IMG/VR virus record: IMGVR_UViG_3300025128_000292
Coordinates: 1 to 25,719 of that record
Length of the DNA stretch: 25,719 nt
From: a virus
Direction: 5' to 3' (one strand)
Positions 4,816 to 21,260 of the stretch are shown one piece after another (within the stretch, counting starts at the first letter, position 1; each line of letters opens with the position of its first letter). Under the pieces are notes generated by a model, which was not told the origin of the DNA, ran no database searches, and saw only the letters and a program-made list of their open reading frames with translations. The position numbers were made by a program, and so were the translations under genes.

Positions 4816-4823
4816 CAAATATA
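4816..4823 (-). promoter_or_regulatory. Leftward TATATTTG box before capsid block
   Basis: CAAATATA on the plus strand reads TATATTTG leftward, a full match to the Bacteroidota -7 element TAnnTTTG, followed by C. It lies 29 bases before the start at 4786. There is no clear TTG at the -33 distance. It would drive the small virion, scaffold and capsid genes separately from the upstream cassette. Confidence 0.5.
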
Positions 4824-4839
4824 GGGAATCTAGGAAATC

Positions 4840-5163
4840 TTATTTTTTGCCGAATGTCTTCTTCTGACTCTTTGGTGGACGCTTACTGTGCCCCCCTGCT
4901 TTCCATAAAAATCTGTTAGCCCAATATGCGGCACTACCTTTACGTTTAATATTTTTTGCGTGTCTACTCTTAAAAGCTTTTCGTGCTTCGGGGCTGTAGT
5001 TGTTCCCCATCTTCTGATCACCAAAACGCACTACCTTTCCTCCCTCTTGCCCAGGGCCTATCGTAGAAAGAACCACAGCCTTTTTAGTAGGGTGGTTTCT
5101 TGTAAGCTTTGGTTTGTTAACTCCTTTAAGCCCAAGCTTTTTTAATTTGTCTTTTATAGCCAT
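4840..5163 (-). CDS. Basic phage protein (DUF6321-like)
   Basis: A 107-residue very basic protein. The motifs GVNKPKLTRNHPTKKAVVLS, VVRFGDQKMG and FKSRHAKNIKRKGSAAYWAN match, from memory, a family of phage proteins recorded as DUF6321, whose hallmark is a HPTK segment, an IRFG segment and a KARHAKNI-(x)-SAAYWA segment. Function is unknown; its charge suggests nucleic acid binding or packaging with DNA. The start overlaps the stop of the thioredoxin-fold gene (TAATG), so translation is probably coupled. It ends the envelope cassette. The DUF number is from memory. Confidence 0.75.
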   Translation of the reverse strand: MAIKDKLKKLGLKGVNKPKLTRNHPTKKAVVLSTIGPGQEGGKVVRFGDQKMGNNYSPEARKAFKSRHAKNIKRKGSAAYWANRFLWKAGGHSKRPPKSQKKTFGKK

Positions 5164-5531
5164 TAGAAGTCGCTCATTATAATTTCGTCAACAGCACCCT
5201 GCACATCACTCTTGCTCGCCTCCATCGTCATCATAATATTCGCCTGAAAGCGATCCACTTCTTCTCCGTTGTTGAACACAACGATTGTTGGGACCACGAC
5301 GATCTTGTGCTCCATTTGTAACTCTGGAGCAACGGCAATGTCTACACGGGTTGTTGTGCAGTCGTTTAGCTTTTCTATCCAAGGCACACTGTTTTGAGAG
5401 TTGAACGAAGCGTTAAACTCTGCAACACATATGCCGTCTTTATTAATTCCTGGGGCACTCTCCAGAGGAGATACATGCACCACCATTAATAATGATAGAA
5501 GCGATAATACAGATACTAGAACAGTTTTCAT
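5163..5531 (-). CDS. Secreted thioredoxin-fold protein lacking CxxC
   Basis: A 122-residue protein. Residues 1-26 are a signal peptide (MKTVLVSVLSLLSLLMVVHV core, then SPLESA). Residues 33-118 follow the thioredoxin order: a strand ending in CVAEFNASFN, helix with VPWIEKL, a strand TRVDIAV, then VVVPTIVVFNNGEEV with the cis-proline at about residue 81, then a C-terminal helix. Where thioredoxin has WCGPC this protein has NASFNSQNS, so it should be redox-inactive. Cysteines 35 and 58 could form one disulfide. It should act in the periplasm, as a chaperone-like or binding domain. It overlaps the next gene by one base and follows the membrane coiled-coil gene by 9 bases. Confidence 0.75.
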   Translation of the reverse strand: MKTVLVSVLSLLSLLMVVHVSPLESAPGINKDGICVAEFNASFNSQNSVPWIEKLNDCTTTRVDIAVAPELQMEHKIVVVPTIVVFNNGEEVDRFQANIMMTMEASKSDVQGAVDEIIMSDF

Positions 5532-5540
5532 TTTTCATCA

Positions 5541-5822
5541 TTACAGGTTATCTATCTTTTCTTCGATACGTTTCATATCGTCTTTAATTTCGGTTACATC
5601 TTCTTGTGTAGTCATAATAGTCTGACGGATCAGTTGATCTTTCATATCAAACTCCATACGTGTAACTTCTGCAGGTAGTGGCTCAGGCAGTTCTTTAGCT
5701 AAAGCTATGTCTGCTTGAAGAGCAAACCACATCCCGATAAGGGCTGCTAGCCCTGCTACACCCATTCCTATTGTCTTTAGATCTAGTGTTACTTTAGTAT
5801 CCTCTCCAATTTGTTTTGCCAT
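5541..5822 (-). CDS. Membrane-anchored coiled-coil protein
   Basis: A 93-residue protein with one transmembrane segment at about residues 17-36 (IGMGVAGLAALIGMWFALQA). A linker with ELPEPLPAEVTRMEFDMKD and a charged heptad-like helix to the end (EDVTEIKDDMKRIEEKIDNL) follow. This layout resembles small phage inner-membrane proteins with a periplasmic or cytoplasmic coiled coil, and it could be holin- or spanin-like. No lysin gene is near, so a lysis role is only a guess. Its ATG overlaps the stop of the barrel-like gene (TAATG), which suggests coupled translation and a shared task at the cell envelope. Confidence 0.7.
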   Translation of the reverse strand: MAKQIGEDTKVTLDLKTIGMGVAGLAALIGMWFALQADIALAKELPEPLPAEVTRMEFDMKDQLIRQTIMTTQEDVTEIKDDMKRIEEKIDNL

Positions 5823-6919
5823 TATAGTATCACATAATTTAGTCCTACAGTAAAGTCATGCCATTCTCTATTCCAATACTTATTGTATTTACCTTCTAAG
5901 AAAACACCAAGACTTTTATTTAATCTCCACCCAAAGATAAGGCCTGCACCGTAATCGATCCATTGAGCCCCGTCAGTGGTTTCAAAGTAAGAGTACTCAC
6001 CCTCTGTCTTTAAGTGATATGGCATAACGCTAACCCAAGAATGCAGCCAGTAATCTTTTGTAAAGTGGTAATAGTCATAACCTAAAACAACAGAATAGTT
6101 CCATTGATTAGGCAGCTCGCTACGCTTACGATCTACATAGTCATCTATCACTTGAGGGATAACAACCTGCTCCCATACATCAGAACTATTTGCAATAAGC
6201 TCTCCGTTAGGAGTAAAGTATTCTTCTGCTTGTACGTCAACAGTATATCCCTCTTGTATAGCTAAACTTGTGTAGTGTAAATTTCCGTTAGGTAGTACCC
6301 ACTGGTCTAAGGGATTGTAACCATATGGCTCTGATATACGCTGAGCTATACCTACGTTAAAACTAAACTTACTATTGACGTTTAAACGTAAACGTTGAGA
6401 ACCCTCAAAGTATTCGACATCAGCAAAACCATCTTGCAGGTACTCAGCTTTAGCTATCCAGTTTTTTGCTACGTAACGGAGGAAGTAATCTTGATCTAGA
6501 AAGTTTCTACCCTGTTGTCTACGCCAATCAGCTTCAAACAAAAACTCAAACCCCTTTACCTTACCAATGTTTGCAGCATCACTATACGATCTTTCAGTAC
6601 CGTTGTAAAAAGTATTTGCTCTATTTTCATATCCAAACCTAGCAATCTTTCTAACGCCTAAAGTCATAGAGTAATCAAAAGGTGTTTCTACAACATCTGT
6701 TTGTAATCCATTTGTTACAGAATAAATATTATCATCAGCTACAGAATTACCGCCGCTAACAGCTGCATAAAAAGTAGCAAACTTAAATGTCTTCTTTAAC
6801 GTCTGTCCTTTTGCGTCTAAAGACGTACCAAGAATAAACACGACAAGCATTATTGTCATGTAAAGAAAAAACTGTAACCTTCTGTACTTACGGCAGTTAT
6901 TTAATTGCTCTGGTAACAT
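5822..6919 (-). CDS. Outer-membrane beta-barrel-like protein
   Basis: A 365-residue protein starting at the ATG at 6917-6919; a GTG one codon upstream is possible. A basic N-terminus (NCRKYRR) precedes a hydrophobic segment, about residues 17-34, and a likely cleavage near AKGQ-T, so it is exported. The rest is a string of amphipathic, aromatic-rich strands separated by polar turns: SVVLGYDYYHFTKDYWLHSW, IDYGAGLIFGWRLN, SLGVFLEGKYNKYW and a final DFTVGLNYVIL. Alternating Tyr/Trp, Gly and an aromatic-hydrophobic last strand are hallmarks of outer-membrane barrels. Cysteine is nearly absent. No TonB box or plug is seen, so a small porin-like barrel fits best. Phage genomes rarely carry such genes. 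Confidence 0.68.
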   Translation of the reverse strand: MLPEQLNNCRKYRRLQFFLYMTIMLVVFILGTSLDAKGQTLKKTFKFATFYAAVSGGNSVADDNIYSVTNGLQTDVVETPFDYSMTLGVRKIARFGYENRANTFYNGTERSYSDAANIGKVKGFEFLFEADWRRQQGRNFLDQDYFLRYVAKNWIAKAEYLQDGFADVEYFEGSQRLRLNVNSKFSFNVGIAQRISEPYGYNPLDQWVLPNGNLHYTSLAIQEGYTVDVQAEEYFTPNGELIANSSDVWEQVVIPQVIDDYVDRKRSELPNQWNYSVVLGYDYYHFTKDYWLHSWVSVMPYHLKTEGEYSYFETTDGAQWIDYGAGLIFGWRLNKSLGVFLEGKYNKYWNREWHDFTVGLNYVIL

Positions 6920-7068
6920 CACACTTCAAATCCTACATTTAAAACCATAAATCTAAACTTTTTTGCGTAACGTATTTCTAAGATGGTGATTGTTCCTAAC
7001 CTCCATTCTAAATGATACTTTTCTTTTTTGTTGTTAGCGTTCCAGCTATTAATCCAATTAACCTTCAT
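6919..7068 (-). CDS. Small basic protein, 49 residues
   Basis: A complete 49-residue frame between the secreted repeat protein and the barrel-like gene. Its ATG overlaps the upstream stop (ATGA, 7065-7068) and its TGA overlaps the next ATG (TGATG, 6917-6921), so it is tightly nested in the operon and very likely translated. Tryptophan-rich start MKVNWINSWNANNKKEKYHL, then GTITILEIRYAKKFRFMVLN. No signal peptide. The alternating residues at the end suggest a small beta sheet. Family not recognised. Its position suggests it serves the two exported neighbours or only keeps translation coupled. Confidence 0.72.
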   Translation of the reverse strand: MKVNWINSWNANNKKEKYHLEWRLGTITILEIRYAKKFRFMVLNVGFEV

Positions 7069-9278
7069 GATTTAATTATTTTCTTTTTAATAATTCTAGA
7101 GTTGTATTGTATAACGACCTCATACACACCGTTTGAAAGGTGTGAGAGGTCTATTGTTTTATCAGAAGTTTGTATAACAACTTCACCTAAATAGTTATAC
7201 AGAGATATCATAGCTGTTGATGGGGCTTGTATATACAATAATCCGTTTGTTGGGTTAGGGTATACACTGTATATATCGTGTATATCATATACGCCCTGCG
7301 GCCAGCCTTGCTCACAATAAGAGTATAGATCTACACACGCTTCATCCCAAGCGACTTCGCAGCAGTAAGGATCTATATCAATAATCCAAGCGTAACACCC
7401 ATCGTTAAGCCAATATGGCTCACCAGGTCCTGTGATACAACCTGCGTCATATAAGCAAGATTCTTCATCTGGAGTGTTTGCTAACTCATTGTAGTTATAT
7501 GCATCAGGATCCATACAGTCTGCTACTACCTCTACACAAGAATCCTCTAACTCTGTATTTGCATCGACGTTGTAGTTAAATGCATCTGGATTCATACACC
7601 CATATATATAAGCAATACAGCTTCCGTTTTCCGTATTAGCATCTGGGTTGTAATTAAACTGCGTTGGATCAGTACATCCGAATATTACTGGGATACACTC
7701 TCCAGCGTCTGTTGCTAAAGCATTATAATTAAACGCTGTAGGATCTTGACAGCCAACTATTTCTAACTCGTCACATACCCCATCACCATCGTAGTCATTT
7801 ACACAGCTATTATTGCAGTCGTAATACTCTACTGGATAATTGCAGTCAGAATTTGTGTTAGCTTCAGGGTTGTAGTTACAAGCAGCCGCATCCGTACAAC
7901 CATATATATAAGGTATACAACTGTCTCCGCAATACGGCGTAAAGTGATATACCGTCCAGTTAGGACCTGTAAATGGTTGAAGAGCACCCTGTCCGTTGTT
8001 TATAAATGGGTTACTGCCTTCAGACAATAAAGTGTCCCCAGCTTCGTTAAGGACATACACAGAGTTATGTAACGTCTGAAAGGCTAGCTCTTGAGATGAT
8101 TGCTGTTGATTACCAGCTTGGAAGTAGTATATATCGACTTCTTCATCAGAGTCTAGCACAATATCCCATGACTGAAAAAACTCGCCAGGACCTACGGTAA
8201 ACAGCCACTGCTGCTCACCCTGCACCATACCTATAGTAGAGTTACCCCATCCGTCAGCCGCATCATCCTCAAGAACAATCTGTATACTGCACGGGCCCAC
8301 AAGATCTGCTATCGTTGCAGTACTATCGTAATTCAAAGCTTCTGGGTTTGTGCACCCCCAGATGTGTAGTGTTTCGCAGGTATCTGGTAACTCGGCTTCT
8401 GGATTATAGTCTACATAATCATCATCCATACATCCGTAGATAGGAGGTGCTGGAGGGCACGGCTCTGTAAATATAGCGCCAGAGTACATCGTGTTTCCAT
8501 CAAACTCTGTAAATGCTAGATCTTCTAATTCCCATAACACACTATCGCAAGCCGTGATAACACAAGCTCCGTCCTGACCACCTGAAGCATAACCGTTTAA
8601 CCCATCTCCAAACTCGTCTGCCAATATTAATTCAAAACCTAAGCTAACACAAAAGTTGTAAGTATATGTAACAAGCTGATCGCCAAAGTCAAACTCACCA
8701 GGTATTACTTGATCATAAGGCTGTCCATCAGCTATATTAACTAAAGTAAACCCAGTTTCTCCAGGCCATGTATCTAACGTGAGATCCATTGACACTAGAG
8801 TTTCCGTAGAGTCACATTCAAATACATTACAACTTCCGTTATCAATGTTAGCCCATGGGTTGTAGTTGTTCGCAACAGGATTAGTACATCCAGGAAGAGG
8901 AGGTATGCAGGGATTTAAAGTAAAAGGTATAGTGTCTAAAGCTGTATCAAAATCATACACTGCTGTATCTAACCCACATGTATTGCTTATCCTATACCAC
9001 CCTTCTCCAAACTGACAGCATATCCCGTCACCAAAAGCATCCATCATTACAAACTCGTAATCTCCAGATGGTAGGAATACCATGTGATTTTGAAAGGTAT
9101 TGTTCTGATATGGAGGGCTTACTGCTACTACCTCAGAGTCTTCATTAAGTATTTCCCAAGAAGTCTCCCCAGCATACTGATCTGTTTGAACCTGCACATC
9201 CAACCAACTTCCTTGAGCTAATACACATGATGCTACCACCCAAAATAAAAAAACCAATAAGTAAGATTTGTTTTTCAT
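7065..9278 (-). CDS. T9SS-exported Cys-rich repeat protein
   Basis: A 737-residue exported protein. Residues 1-22 are a signal peptide ending VLAQ, typical of Flavobacteria. Three beta modules lie near 25-120, 160-245 and 330-445; the first two contain AFGDGICC and EFGDGLNG, as in surface proteins of marine Bacteroidota. Eight copies of a Cys unit of the form GC-T/M-(D/N)P-x-A-x-NYN-x-x-A-x(4)-C start near 130, 282, 308, 460, 509, 534, 560 and 587. NDYDGDGVCDELE (494-506) is a calcium-binding TSP3-like loop. Residues 671-737 are a type A T9SS sorting domain: YPNPTNG, ISLYNYLGEV, IDLSHLSNGVY, ending KKKIIKS. The product should cross the outer membrane and be released or anchored on the surface. 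Acidic and low in Lys until the tail. Confidence 0.85.
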   Translation of the reverse strand: MKNKSYLLVFLFWVVASCVLAQGSWLDVQVQTDQYAGETSWEILNEDSEVVAVSPPYQNNTFQNHMVFLPSGDYEFVMMDAFGDGICCQFGEGWYRISNTCGLDTAVYDFDTALDTIPFTLNPCIPPLPGCTNPVANNYNPWANIDNGSCNVFECDSTETLVSMDLTLDTWPGETGFTLVNIADGQPYDQVIPGEFDFGDQLVTYTYNFCVSLGFELILADEFGDGLNGYASGGQDGACVITACDSVLWELEDLAFTEFDGNTMYSGAIFTEPCPPAPPIYGCMDDDYVDYNPEAELPDTCETLHIWGCTNPEALNYDSTATIADLVGPCSIQIVLEDDAADGWGNSTIGMVQGEQQWLFTVGPGEFFQSWDIVLDSDEEVDIYYFQAGNQQQSSQELAFQTLHNSVYVLNEAGDTLLSEGSNPFINNGQGALQPFTGPNWTVYHFTPYCGDSCIPYIYGCTDAAACNYNPEANTNSDCNYPVEYYDCNNSCVNDYDGDGVCDELEIVGCQDPTAFNYNALATDAGECIPVIFGCTDPTQFNYNPDANTENGSCIAYIYGCMNPDAFNYNVDANTELEDSCVEVVADCMDPDAYNYNELANTPDEESCLYDAGCITGPGEPYWLNDGCYAWIIDIDPYCCEVAWDEACVDLYSYCEQGWPQGVYDIHDIYSVYPNPTNGLLYIQAPSTAMISLYNYLGEVVIQTSDKTIDLSHLSNGVYEVVIQYNSRIIKKKIIKS

Positions 9279-9282
9279 GTCA

Positions 9283-9290
9283 CAAATATA
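9283..9290 (-). promoter_or_regulatory. TATATTTG box 4 bases before a start codon
   Basis: Leftward TATATTTG followed by T, a full TAnnTTTGY match. Only 4 bases (TGAC) separate it from the ATG of the T9SS-exported protein, so a normal start point would fall on the ATG and the mRNA would be leaderless. No TTG at -33. It sits in the 18-base gap after the gene ending at 9297. Confidence 0.5.
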
Positions 9291-9296
9291 ATTTAT

Positions 9297-9968
9297 TTAC
9301 ACTCCTATTATTTCGCTTATATCACCACTAGCTACACCATTAACCTCACCTATGTTAGCACTAGCTACTAGATTAACATCATTACCATATCCTGCTAACG
9401 TAACCACTAAAGTTATTGTCCCAGAAAAATCTATGCCTACAGTTGTATTTCCGCTACCAGAAAGACTGTCAGTATCTTGGAAGTCACTATCATGATCTAC
9501 AACAGCACATATAAAACTATTATTATTTTGAATAGCTGTACGAGCTGCCGCATTTAATGTAATAGCATTATTTGCTCCGTTATCATTCCAAGTAGAAACT
9601 TGACTCGAATATGCAGTAGTAAAATCTACATTATTAAAATCGTCATTTATAAGATCATCACTTGCCCCACCAAAAGCATCACTTGCACAAACTATAACAT
9701 CAGCAGTGTCAGATGTACCTTCACTCTCTATATTTAAAACAGCAGTACCTACTGCAGATGTAATAGATGATGAATCAAATTGTAAAAAAGATCTTATATA
9801 TCTAAATGTACCTGCACCTCTACCTGTGTTTTTAAAGTATTGAACAGCACTAATTTGAGCTGTGCCTTGTGCTGTAGATGTACCAGAGGCTTCATCTCTA
9901 GCTGCTGCTTGAGATGAGTCTACTGTACCTATAATCCTACCACCTTTATTTAAGTTTATAGTAGGCAT
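9297..9968 (-). CDS. Beta-rich fibre or adhesin protein
   Basis: A 223-residue protein without signal peptide. Residues 1-110 include YIRSFLQFDSSSI and AVLNIESEGTSDTADVIVCA, a pattern seen in jelly-roll DNRLRE-like domains. Residues 120-175 contain VSTWNDNGANNAITLNAAA and ICAVVDHDSD. The end carries a double motif, NIGEVNGVASGDISEIIGV, resembling the I-x-x-V-N-G-V repeats I recall at the ends of marine phage and bacteroidotal surface proteins. It starts directly after the methyltransferase stop (TAAATG), in the fibre block. A tail-fibre tip or receptor-binding accessory is the likely role, inferred from fold pattern and position. Confidence 0.68.
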   Translation of the reverse strand: MPTINLNKGGRIIGTVDSSQAAARDEASGTSTAQGTAQISAVQYFKNTGRGAGTFRYIRSFLQFDSSSITSAVGTAVLNIESEGTSDTADVIVCASDAFGGASDDLINDDFNNVDFTTAYSSQVSTWNDNGANNAITLNAAARTAIQNNNSFICAVVDHDSDFQDTDSLSGSGNTTVGIDFSGTITLVVTLAGYGNDVNLVASANIGEVNGVASGDISEIIGV

Positions 9969-10535
9969 TTAAAATACTTTTTTAGGGAGGTAATATGTAG
10001 TCGAGTTAAAATACATATTAGAATCAGGGTTTACAGAAATACTTTCGTATAAAACATTATCTATGTTATGAATAGTATTAGCAGAAGTATTTGCATTCCA
10101 CCATGTAACTTTTGCTCCAGACTTACATAATGACGGTATAACAATAGCAAATAAACTCCAGTCATCTTCCCCCCATGTATCGTAAAATACTCCATCGTAA
10201 GTAGACAAAGAATCTTTTACTTCATACCAGTCTCCCTCTACTATGGTGACATTAGGTTTATCTGCAGCCCAAGCCTTAGCTTTTTCTATAACTTGAGGGT
10301 GGTTTTCTACTATCGTGTGGGATAATATAGAATTAGATTGAATATGCCCAGCAGATATACCCATACCAAAACCTATCTCTAATATATCTCCACCCCCTTC
10401 ACATACATAGTCAGCAGAGGCTTTCATTATAGGATCTTCCCAAGACATCATAACCTGCATTTCCCCTCCAAATGCCTCATCTGTATAATATATTTTATCA
10501 GAAGTAAATCTTAATGTTTTATCTATATAACCCAT
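9969..10535 (-). CDS. SAM-dependent methyltransferase, GAMT/PRMT-like
   Basis: A 188-residue class I methyltransferase. Motif I is DILEIGFGMGISAGHIQ (residues 50-66), followed by the acidic end of strand 2 (IVENHP, Glu77), then GDWYEV (101-106) and FYDTWGEDDW (117-126). The order WEDPIM, LEIGFGMGIS, a VEN/IEC acidic site and YDT is that of guanidinoacetate N-methyltransferase and the related Rmt2 arginine methyltransferases, rather than DNA methylases: there is no DPPY or NPPY. GAMT proteins are longer (about 235 residues), so this is a short form lacking parts of the C-terminus. It lies between fibre genes with TAATG coupling, so the substrate may be a virion protein or a host metabolite. 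The substrate is unknown. Confidence 0.82.
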   Translation of the reverse strand: MGYIDKTLRFTSDKIYYTDEAFGGEMQVMMSWEDPIMKASADYVCEGGGDILEIGFGMGISAGHIQSNSILSHTIVENHPQVIEKAKAWAADKPNVTIVEGDWYEVKDSLSTYDGVFYDTWGEDDWSLFAIVIPSLCKSGAKVTWWNANTSANTIHNIDNVLYESISVNPDSNMYFNSTTYYLPKKVF

Positions 10536-17829: not shown

Positions 17830-18113
17830 TATTTAGAAAAACGTTCTGCAAAGCCACTACTATAATCAGCCTCTTCTTCTATTTGCCCGTTGCTAGAAAG
17901 ATCCTTTAACATCTGCTCTAGCTTCTGACGTTCTATAAGAAGCTCCTTACAATCAATAGCAGTTTGCTTTATAGATTGTAATTCAGCTTTACGTGCGCTA
18001 CCATTTATTTCTTGATCAACAGGTTTTTTAATTTCACTAATCATATTATCTATGGCCTGCTCCATAGAAGACATAAGCCTTTTAGCTGCACTCGCTGTCG
18101 TAAACTTTGACAT
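17829..18113 (-). CDS. Candidate small terminase / coiled-coil protein
   Basis: A 94-residue mostly helical, charged protein without membrane segment. It has helix-rich stretches SAAKRLMSSMEQAIDNMISE and LLIERQKLEQMLKDLSS. It lies directly before the large terminase, overlapping it by one base (TAATG), the usual place of the small terminase subunit that recognises viral DNA and stimulates the ATPase. There is no clear helix-turn-helix motif, so the assignment rests on size, helicity and position. Its first 32 bases overlap the end of the GroES-like gene in another frame. Confidence 0.6.
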   Translation of the reverse strand: MSKFTTASAAKRLMSSMEQAIDNMISEIKKPVDQEINGSARKAELQSIKQTAIDCKELLIERQKLEQMLKDLSSNGQIEEEADYSSGFAERFSK

Positions 18114-18687
18114 AGCTTATATCATCTACCCTCATTCTATAAACAACATCACCATTATCTAGCTTTATTTTATAGTCAGAGTTTTTATCAAAACCTATAA
18201 TATCACCTGGCTTTACACCTTGAGCTTCTAACTCTGGATGAGGCATATATACTTCTGCCTCATCAGCAAGTTCTTTCTGTGTAGCAAGCTCCATTATAAT
18301 ACCGCTTTCAGAAACCTCATCCTCTCTTTCGTCTACAGGTAAAACAAACAACCAGTCAGAAAGCATATGCAACTCATCAGAGTCTTTATCTCTATATGCT
18401 ATTGCTTGACTCATCCTTCCGTTTTCTGGATCGTAAAGAACAAGATGCCTTTTGTCTCCTAAGTTTAACGCTGGGTTTGTTGTTACGTGATGGTGGAATA
18501 TAAGGGTATCACCAGGCTTACACTGTAGCTCTGGATGTTTCATAGGTGTAGCTATAATTTCTCCATAGGAGATCCTATGCTCAAACTCGTTAAATTTATT
18601 TTCTAGGAATATCTCTTTATCCCCAACCTTTAAAGTGTCCTCAAATTTCTTTGGGACACTTACAATAAAATGATATACGGCATTCAT
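18082..18687 (-). CDS. Double-barrel GroES-like co-chaperonin
   Basis: A 201-residue protein with two Cpn10-type beta barrels. Barrel 1 (about 5-105) has YGEIIATPMKHPELQCKPGD then TLIFHHHV. Barrel 2 (about 108-195) has DWLFVLPVDERE, a SESGIIM hairpin, VKPGDIIGFDKNSDYKIK and the end VVYRMRVDDISYVKV, which matches the GroES dome order ending ...(M/R)xxDI. GroES proteins cap GroEL and assist folding. Phages such as T4 (gp31) code their own to fold a capsid protein. Position just before the terminase and portal genes suggests use for virion proteins. The mobile loop is not clearly visible, so true GroEL contact is not certain. Confidence 0.72.
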   Translation of the reverse strand: MNAVYHFIVSVPKKFEDTLKVGDKEIFLENKFNEFEHRISYGEIIATPMKHPELQCKPGDTLIFHHHVTTNPALNLGDKRHLVLYDPENGRMSQAIAYRDKDSDELHMLSDWLFVLPVDEREDEVSESGIIMELATQKELADEAEVYMPHPELEAQGVKPGDIIGFDKNSDYKIKLDNGDVVYRMRVDDISYVKVYDSECS

Positions 18688-20912: not shown

Positions 20913-21260
20913 ATGAAGAACTTATTTTTAACACTCGCCCTAGTATTTAGCGGCACACTTTTCTGTCAAGAAACAAACGTTAACGTAACTCTAAAAGGAG
21001 TAGAAGACTCTATGTGGATGTTTGGACTCTTAAGCGACAACTACTACAAAGGATATAACTACGAAGCAGCAGACTTTACTGGTGAAGGATTAATAAGAGA
21101 AGGCAAAACGATAGACTTCAATATTACAAAGCCAGGTGCTTATTTTGTAACAATGAAGACTTCAAAGTTTCAAAAAGTAACCTTGGTACACATCATTGTT
21201 GAAGAAGGTGAAGACTACAAAATTGTACAAAGAGTACGCAATAAACAGTTGTACTTATGA
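20913..21260 (+). CDS. Small secreted (periplasmic) protein
   Basis: A 115-residue exported protein. Residues 1-20 are a signal peptide (MKNLFLTLALVFSGTLFCQ) with the Flavobacteria-type end F-C-Q, without a proper lipobox. The mature part is about 95 residues, with likely beta strands (TNVNVTLKGVEDSMWMFGLL, IDFNITKPGAYFVTMK, VTLVHIIVEEGEDYKIV). No family recognised. It is rightward and has its own promoter, so it is an independent gene inserted in the leftward block; it may act on the host envelope during infection or lysogeny. The last 6 bases overlap the end of the leftward gene at 21255. Confidence 0.75.
   Translation: MKNLFLTLALVFSGTLFCQETNVNVTLKGVEDSMWMFGLLSDNYYKGYNYEAADFTGEGLIREGKTIDFNITKPGAYFVTMKTSKFQKVTLVHIIVEEGEDYKIVQRVRNKQLYL

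Follow-up and report, generated by a model that had tools for sequence, protein, structure and literature searches.

Spanins, such as Rz/Rz1 and T1 gp11, combine an inner-membrane coiled-coil part with an outer-membrane part, are encoded in the neighborhood of endolysin and holin genes, and act at the last envelope step of phage lysis. According to one survey, Bacteroidetes phages use only unimolecular spanins (PMC12596118), whereas another lists Bacteroides and Croceibacter phages among those that are spanin-less (PMC6139136). Here we analyze a set of genes, denoted T9, p49, OMP, coil and trx, on the minus strand of a viral sequence of 25,719 bases (IMG/VR record IMGVR_UViG_3300025128_000292; hereafter, the window), which resembles the spanins in its predicted inner-membrane coiled coil (coil), in having an outer-membrane part and, across the viral records examined albeit not in the window lineage itself, in its linkage to holin and endolysin genes; the role that we propose for it likewise lies in the last envelope step. 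Unlike the spanins, the module has an outer part that appears to consist of a beta-barrel (OMP) and a cargo protein of the type IX secretion system (T9SS) rather than a lipoprotein, a thioredoxin-fold protein (trx) is added, and no homology was found. Given that OMP is a predicted barrel, which is at variance with the lipoprotein feature of o- and u-spanins, we do not file the module as a spanin; it may be a variant of a phage lysis or egress cassette, with a real chance of being an altogether new kind.

Two other parallels concern parts of the module. In gliding Bacteroidota, SprB/SprF-like cargo-barrel gene pairs consist of a T9SS cargo gene located directly before an outer-membrane barrel gene; the module differs from these pairs in that the sorting domain of T9 is of type A, not type B, and OMP shows no PorP/SprF Pfam match at E 1. 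Similarly, XhlA-type coiled coils share with coil a short transmembrane (TM) segment and a coiled coil encoded directly after the holin, whereas coil itself has no XhlA Pfam match at E 1. The reading that we develop below, namely that these genes enable Bacteroidota phages to breach the host envelope for egress, coil and trx being the core and T9 and OMP an outer-membrane/surface arm, is in our estimate evenly balanced between being right and being wrong.

The module itself is real. Scans of IMG/VR confirmed 430 loci with the OMP query, at least 540 with an OMP profile, at least 466 with coil and at least 581 with trx; at most the best 80 loci were kept per scan, and many of these share one contig. 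All four of T9, OMP, coil and trx are present in 222 of the 264 loci examined (a partly redundant set), on one strand in every case (222/222). After pooling the loci with a coil gene from the OMP, coil, trx and genome-collection scans and removing identical coil DNA, 148 contigs were left, of which 127 encode all four genes. The gene order is T9, OMP, coil, trx in 107 of these, OMP, coil, trx, T9 in 15, and coil, trx, T9, OMP in 5, that is, the three orders are cyclic permutations of a single one. Most of the incomplete loci are cut by contig ends; L242, L254 and L265 lack a T9 match despite sufficient room. The ratio of nonsynonymous to synonymous substitution rates (dN/dS) of the five core genes is 0.04-0.17 against near relatives wherever dS could be estimated, with the exception of T9 compared with the relative L004, in which T9 has been swapped (T9 dN 0.47, dN/dS 0.31; OMP dN 0.016).

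T9 begins with a hydrophobic, signal-like stretch, contains three beta-sandwich domains that bear D-x-G-D-G motifs as well as Cys-rich GCxDPxAxNYNPxA repeats, and ends in a type A sorting domain of the T9SS at residues 672-735 (PF18962, E 4.3e-11; TIGR04183, E 8.1e-11), which was found in 35 of 36 aligned T9 sequences and is also matched by sequence to the C-terminal domains (CTDs) of solved T9SS substrates. The predicted fold of this domain is close to the CTD of RgpB (Z 9.5, root-mean-square deviation 1.7 over 65 residues) and to the SprA-bound CTD of NucA (Z 9.0). The N-terminal hydrophobic stretch, judged from hydropathy, is present in 54 of 60 T9 open reading frames (ORFs) as called, five ORFs being fused to the neighboring basic gene (see below). 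The length of T9 ranges from 175 to 1151 aa and the number of Cys-rich repeats varies; fold comparison of the beta-sandwich domains gave generic matches only, and no enzyme could be assigned to the passenger. T9 is, by its sequence, a protein of the T9SS type A cargo kind, and its export is predicted: it shares with such cargo of Bacteroidota the signal-like N-terminus and a CTD similar in sequence and predicted fold to those of RgpB and NucA, and differs in being virus-encoded and locked into a four-gene module. The p49 gene, which is also real to judge from its orthologues, most of them 49-62 aa long and some carrying a four-Cys hairpin as an insertion, codes for a small conserved protein without a signal; it is present in 49 of 80 loci and in 41 of the 127 complete modules, and where present its position within the module varies.

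OMP carries a signal sequence, and its AlphaFold2 model is an approximately 12-stranded barrel of moderate confidence (pLDDT 71, pTM 0.62). The best PDB matches of the model are the EstA barrel (Z 14.5), KdgM (13.9) and NalP (13.6); these nearest folds, autotransporter and KdgM-type barrels of low identity, point to a barrel but not to a function. OMPLA appears in the same list at Z 11.5, so that a lipase likeness may be considered at the level of the fold. No Pfam family above the cut-off and no PHROG below E 0.5 was detected for OMP, and the fold matches listed are generic barrels with no T9SS barrel among them. The model, with its approximately 12 strands, compares with 14-strand barrels in T9SS partners of the PorP/SprF or PorV kind, for which no Pfam match at E 1 was obtained. 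In BFVD, one 342-aa protein was matched (E 7.7e-21, 25% identity). Among the best 80 of the 430 loci, OMP is 57-98% identical to that of the window. The likely start is the ATG at 6919, which is used by the relatives, the ORF itself opening at a GTG at 6922.

The remaining two proteins appear to belong to the inner membrane and the periplasm. Coil contains one hydrophobic 19-mer at residues 17-35 followed by a heptad-like C-terminal tail, as indicated by hydropathy and heptad analysis; the best 19-mer reaches at least 1.6 in 56 of 68 coil sequences (hydropathy only), and a motif, TRMEFDMKD, is conserved in the alignment of 27. It is thus predicted to be a single-span inner-membrane protein with a C-terminal coiled coil. 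Trx is an exported thioredoxin-fold protein with a profile match to solved thioredoxins in PDB (E 2.2e-8), and it retains the cis-Pro loop of the thioredoxins, from which it differs in its export and in the replacement of CxxC by NxxN. Of 209 distinct sequences, 199 are N..N at this site and none is C..C, and at least some of the ten sequences outside the pattern are also N..N, missed by it; the L352 site, FWAAWNKGN, is that of an ordinary thioredoxin except that both cysteines are substituted. Given the loss of CxxC, no redox chemistry is expected, and we propose that this apparently redox-dead thioredoxin fold acts as a chaperone, scaffold or escort.

These identities had been proposed in an earlier note on the window, which described a T9SS-exported repeat protein, an outer-membrane-barrel-like protein, a membrane coiled coil and a secreted thioredoxin fold, and they are borne out by the matches reported above. 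The same note had joined these genes, with p49, to a sixth one, basic, in a single unit. The product of basic belongs to phrog_7595 (E 1.3e-16) and has a net charge of +26; it was matched in only 20 of 80 loci, so the six-gene unit was rejected and basic is a frequent neighbor outside the core set. In five contigs, L049, L054, L062, L064 and L069 (about 7284-10025), the phrog_7595 domain and the T9 protein that follows it share one continuous reading frame; within the join (MSAAYWANK..KW..LLPILSLQAQ), these fused ORFs contain an in-frame ATG from which T9 would start anew, with a signal-like sequence.

The genomic position of the module provides the main indication of its role. When the flanking ORFs were clustered, the immediate upstream neighbor of T9 frequently turned out to be a holin (phrog_3427, E 1.6e-22); in a second group, genes for a PG_binding/Amidase_2 endolysin and a Phage_holin_4_1 protein come after the module. 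For quantification, 44 records were chosen to span the set, 42 from viruses and 2 metagenome-assembled genomes, in all of which (44/44) OMP is a single-copy gene. The phrog_3427 holin or Amidase_2 is recognizable in 37 of the 42 virus records, and OMP lies at most 5 kb from one of them in 26 of these 37, with 7.1 expected and a maximum of 18 in 20000 random placements, under a null that ignores shared ancestry. The lysis gene and the side on which it lies vary by group: a holin upstream of T9, a holin downstream, or an amidase downstream. When the loci were selected by the holin instead, 61 of 80 were assessable, 19 with less than 6 kb downstream being set aside; the complete set of T9, OMP, coil and trx, with or without p49 after T9, follows the holin in 25 of the 61, a part of it in 6, an XhlA-like coil in 2 and none of it in 28, the last class including window-type records in which the module is located elsewhere in the late operon.

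A profile for distant coil homologs extended this picture. Among 79 loci with a recovered coil, trx adjoins coil in 73 and a lysis gene (holin, Phage_holin_4_1, amidase or M15 peptidase) is found within 3.5 kb in 57, the commonest order being coil, trx, M15 endolysin, holin (25/79); OMP lies within 3.5 kb in only 27. Thus, the coil-trx pair is the widest unit, OMP is an addition to it, and T9 is a further addition. In L540, L543, L544 and L549, and also L532 (near), a gene for a 183-190-aa lipoprotein-like protein is located between OMP and coil, and T9 is missing.

The module is not tied to one type of phage. The TerL family of the window is matched at E below 1e-160 in 20 of the 44 records and more weakly (about 1e-130 and 1e-61) in two more groups, the rest showing a bare match or none; L058, L109 and L119 encode a Terminase_6N enzyme in its place, and the capsid family of the window is present in 22 of the 44. 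The phrog_13704 capsid matches in G002, G005, G037, G043 and G044 contain an internal stop codon, probably because the match runs past its proper end. Given that OMP accompanies several unrelated TerL and capsid types, the module moves independently of the capsid and packaging type, and the notion of fixed structural genes was rejected on this account.

On the bacterial side, the OMP profile recovered four contigs from the genome collection, two of which also hold phage packaging or lysis genes, and among 296 genomes of the order of G027 OMP was found in G027 itself only, in a peptide-seed search that cannot exclude remote bacterial barrels. TerL kin of the window occur in Flavobacterium and Cellulophaga phages, and together with the T9SS domain they suggest that the hosts are Bacteroidota. 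Searches of the open-access literature brought up no mention of this module or of phage proteins sorted by the T9SS.

Close TerL relatives of the window that lack the module suggest what may replace its outer arm. The TerL-based check for OMP covered 80 TerL loci, of which 25 records of at least 20 kb were searched; OMP is present in 9 of the 25 and in 7 of the 11 records of at least 40 kb. Three of the four OMP-lacking records of at least 40 kb encode an exported M43 metallopeptidase (PF05572, E 5e-18, HEVGH motif) after the holin, directly or one gene later, and two of the four have a 69-aa weakly XhlA-like coil after the holin, in the position of coil. Within the available flanking DNA, OMP was found in none of 38 M43 loci; coil and trx are retained in six of these loci (four different sequences), which read holin, coil, trx, M43 wherever the holin is covered. 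A large exported M43 protein with a T9-like beta-sandwich and dockerin-like repeats is encoded near the module in L111 (12605-14335, minus strand), L158, L215, L095, L092 and L099. Lipobox ORFs are found in 15 of the 148 loci and are not conserved; three candidates for u-spanin-like genes, with a lipobox and a C-terminal TM segment, were detected in the 148 loci, one of them probably spurious; this scarcity of u-spanin-like genes speaks for the envelope-breaching reading.

Under the envelope-breaching reading, the four proteins would be made late, one for each compartment, with coil as the inner-membrane, trx as the periplasmic and OMP as the outer-membrane component, and T9 delivered to the cell surface by the host T9SS. 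The holin and endolysin would first open the inner membrane and remove the wall, after which coil and trx, the latter as a scaffold or escort rather than an enzyme, would connect with the OMP/T9 arm and rupture either the outer membrane or the surface layer; where T9 and OMP are absent, the M43 protease may be an alternative way to damage the outer envelope. In the window lineage, the module would have moved to the interval between the fiber and capsid genes of the late operon. Such a role in lysis or egress is favored by the recurrent location of coil and trx near endolysin and holin genes. We advance more tentatively, and somewhat short of even, the broader proposal of a previously unknown trans-envelope egress machine in which coil and a dead trx are a generic phage lysis core to which Bacteroidota phages add interchangeable executors, either OMP and T9 (via the host T9SS) or M43.

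Several observations weigh against the envelope-breaching reading. Besides the shared ancestry that the random placements ignore, the holin lies 24-30 kb from the module in six window-type records. The T9-type protein is not recognized in 27 of 31 OMP loci of the distant set (the 27 distant-coil loci plus four from the earlier scans), being present in 4. The module is patchy, with OMP absent from 4 of the 11 close-TerL records of at least 40 kb, and no match for OMP, coil or T9 was found among the INPHARED phages, where trx recovered only weak Streptomyces phage thioredoxins; given this patchiness and the absence from INPHARED, lysis does not require the module. M43 and the T9-OMP pair are not strictly exclusive, given that a larger M43 gene accompanies the module in six contigs, lying on the opposite strand in five of them. 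Furthermore, a u-spanin-like gene is present in L178 and L182 in addition to the module, and spanins are not known to need a large surface protein.

The strongest competitor, which we nevertheless consider rather unlikely, is remodeling of the host surface or superinfection exclusion, with OMP and T9 masking or occupying receptors or stopping progeny from sticking to debris, coil and trx serving as assembly helpers, and the lysis neighbors reflecting late expression. Phage-borne outer-membrane proteins that block receptors are known, for example Llp of T5; T9 and OMP are the most outward parts of the module, T9 is swapped between close relatives (L004), and the module is patchy and dispensable. 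However, in other phages coil and trx without OMP or T9 often partner endolysin and holin, and an exported protease where T9 and OMP are absent is odd for receptor masking. The earlier note had suggested remodeling in the form of a block to reinfection, altered aggregation or protection of virions; its premise of envelope-directed products stands, as does its view that the set is not ordinary head or tail machinery, given the independence from the capsid and packaging type, whereas for the purpose of the set the coil/trx linkage to lysis genes favors egress instead. An association restricted to structural operons did not hold up, since in most other lineages examined the module is located beside holin or endolysin genes, and the conserved cyclic order is, at the sequence level, not tied to structural genes.

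It appears improbable that the genes are accessory exported genes hitch-hiking in late operons, in which case T9 would be an adhesin, causing cells to aggregate or holding on to released virions. The sandwich domains, the variable number of Cys-rich repeats and the insertion at two different late-operon sites would fit such a role, but four genes kept together in a fixed cyclic order under purifying selection are unlike loose hitch-hikers, and the coil-trx pair recurs beside lysis genes without T9. Finally, virion structural or morphogenesis genes of a head/fiber block, suggested by the position in the window between fiber and capsid genes in one late direction and by the five fusions of phrog_7595 to T9, are very improbable given that the module is found in phages with unrelated TerL and without the window capsid family, is in others distant from the TerL and capsid genes (in G007 and G010, for example, the capsid gene is over 20 kb away), and in the fused ORFs has an in-frame ATG that yields a signal-like start.

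In the window, the late genes follow in minus-strand order as TerL (phrog_6681, E 1.3e-209), portal (phrog_6547, E 5.9e-193), a fiber-like gene, a methyltransferase-like gene, a 223-aa gene, the six ORFs, small genes, a putative scaffold and the capsid protein (phrog_13704, E 2.4e-108). The six ORFs (9278-4840, minus strand; Table 1) are all in the one late direction, with junctions of -4, -4, -1, +9 and -1 bases, so that all pairs but one overlap; this arrangement and the box in front of it had been described in the earlier note and are confirmed by the coordinates, the junctions and the TATATTTG sequence. This sequence, a putative Bacteroidota -7 element, occurs six times in the window, against 2.11 expected and with six attained in 1 of 100 shuffles, every copy being on the coding strand; given one box before T9 and another before the next gene, the gene set is bounded by two boxes.

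Table 1. Coordinates of the module, the flanking boxes and the candidate u-spanin genes (window positions unless a locus is named)
Feature	Position	Strand	Length	Remark
T9	7065..9278	-	737 aa	
p49	6919..7068	-	49 aa	
OMP	5822..6922 (from GTG); 5822..6919 (from ATG)	-	366 aa; 365 aa	
coil	5541..5822	-	93 aa	
trx	5163..5531	-	122 aa	
basic	4840..5163	-	107 aa	
TATATTTG box	9283..9290	-		5 bases upstream of T9 start
TATATTTG box	4816..4823	-		precedes next gene (start 4786); marks end of unit
Candidate u-spanin, L178	12939-13130		63 aa	lipoprotein-like with C-terminal hydrophobic span; downstream of module
Candidate u-spanin, L182	13263-13454		63 aa	lipoprotein-like with C-terminal hydrophobic span; downstream of module

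Two other genes of the window deserve mention. Adjoining TerL is a gene for a GroES-like co-chaperonin (18082-18687, minus strand; phrog_13932, E 4.7e-32), and among the few rightward genes is a 115-aa ORF (20913-21260, plus strand) with a signal-like start (MKNLFLTLALVFSGTLFCQ), possibly a further exported product.

How Bacteroidota phages breach the outer membrane is poorly known, and the presence of the module in hundreds of contigs suggests that it may be a common answer. If the broader proposal of a trans-envelope machine is true, phage lysis would for the first time be found to hijack the T9SS. The module also supplies a predicted virus-encoded T9SS cargo and a possible exchange between the T9-OMP pair and M43, and the large virus family of thioredoxins represented by trx, in which neither cysteine is retained, allows a chaperone or scaffold role of this fold to be tested.

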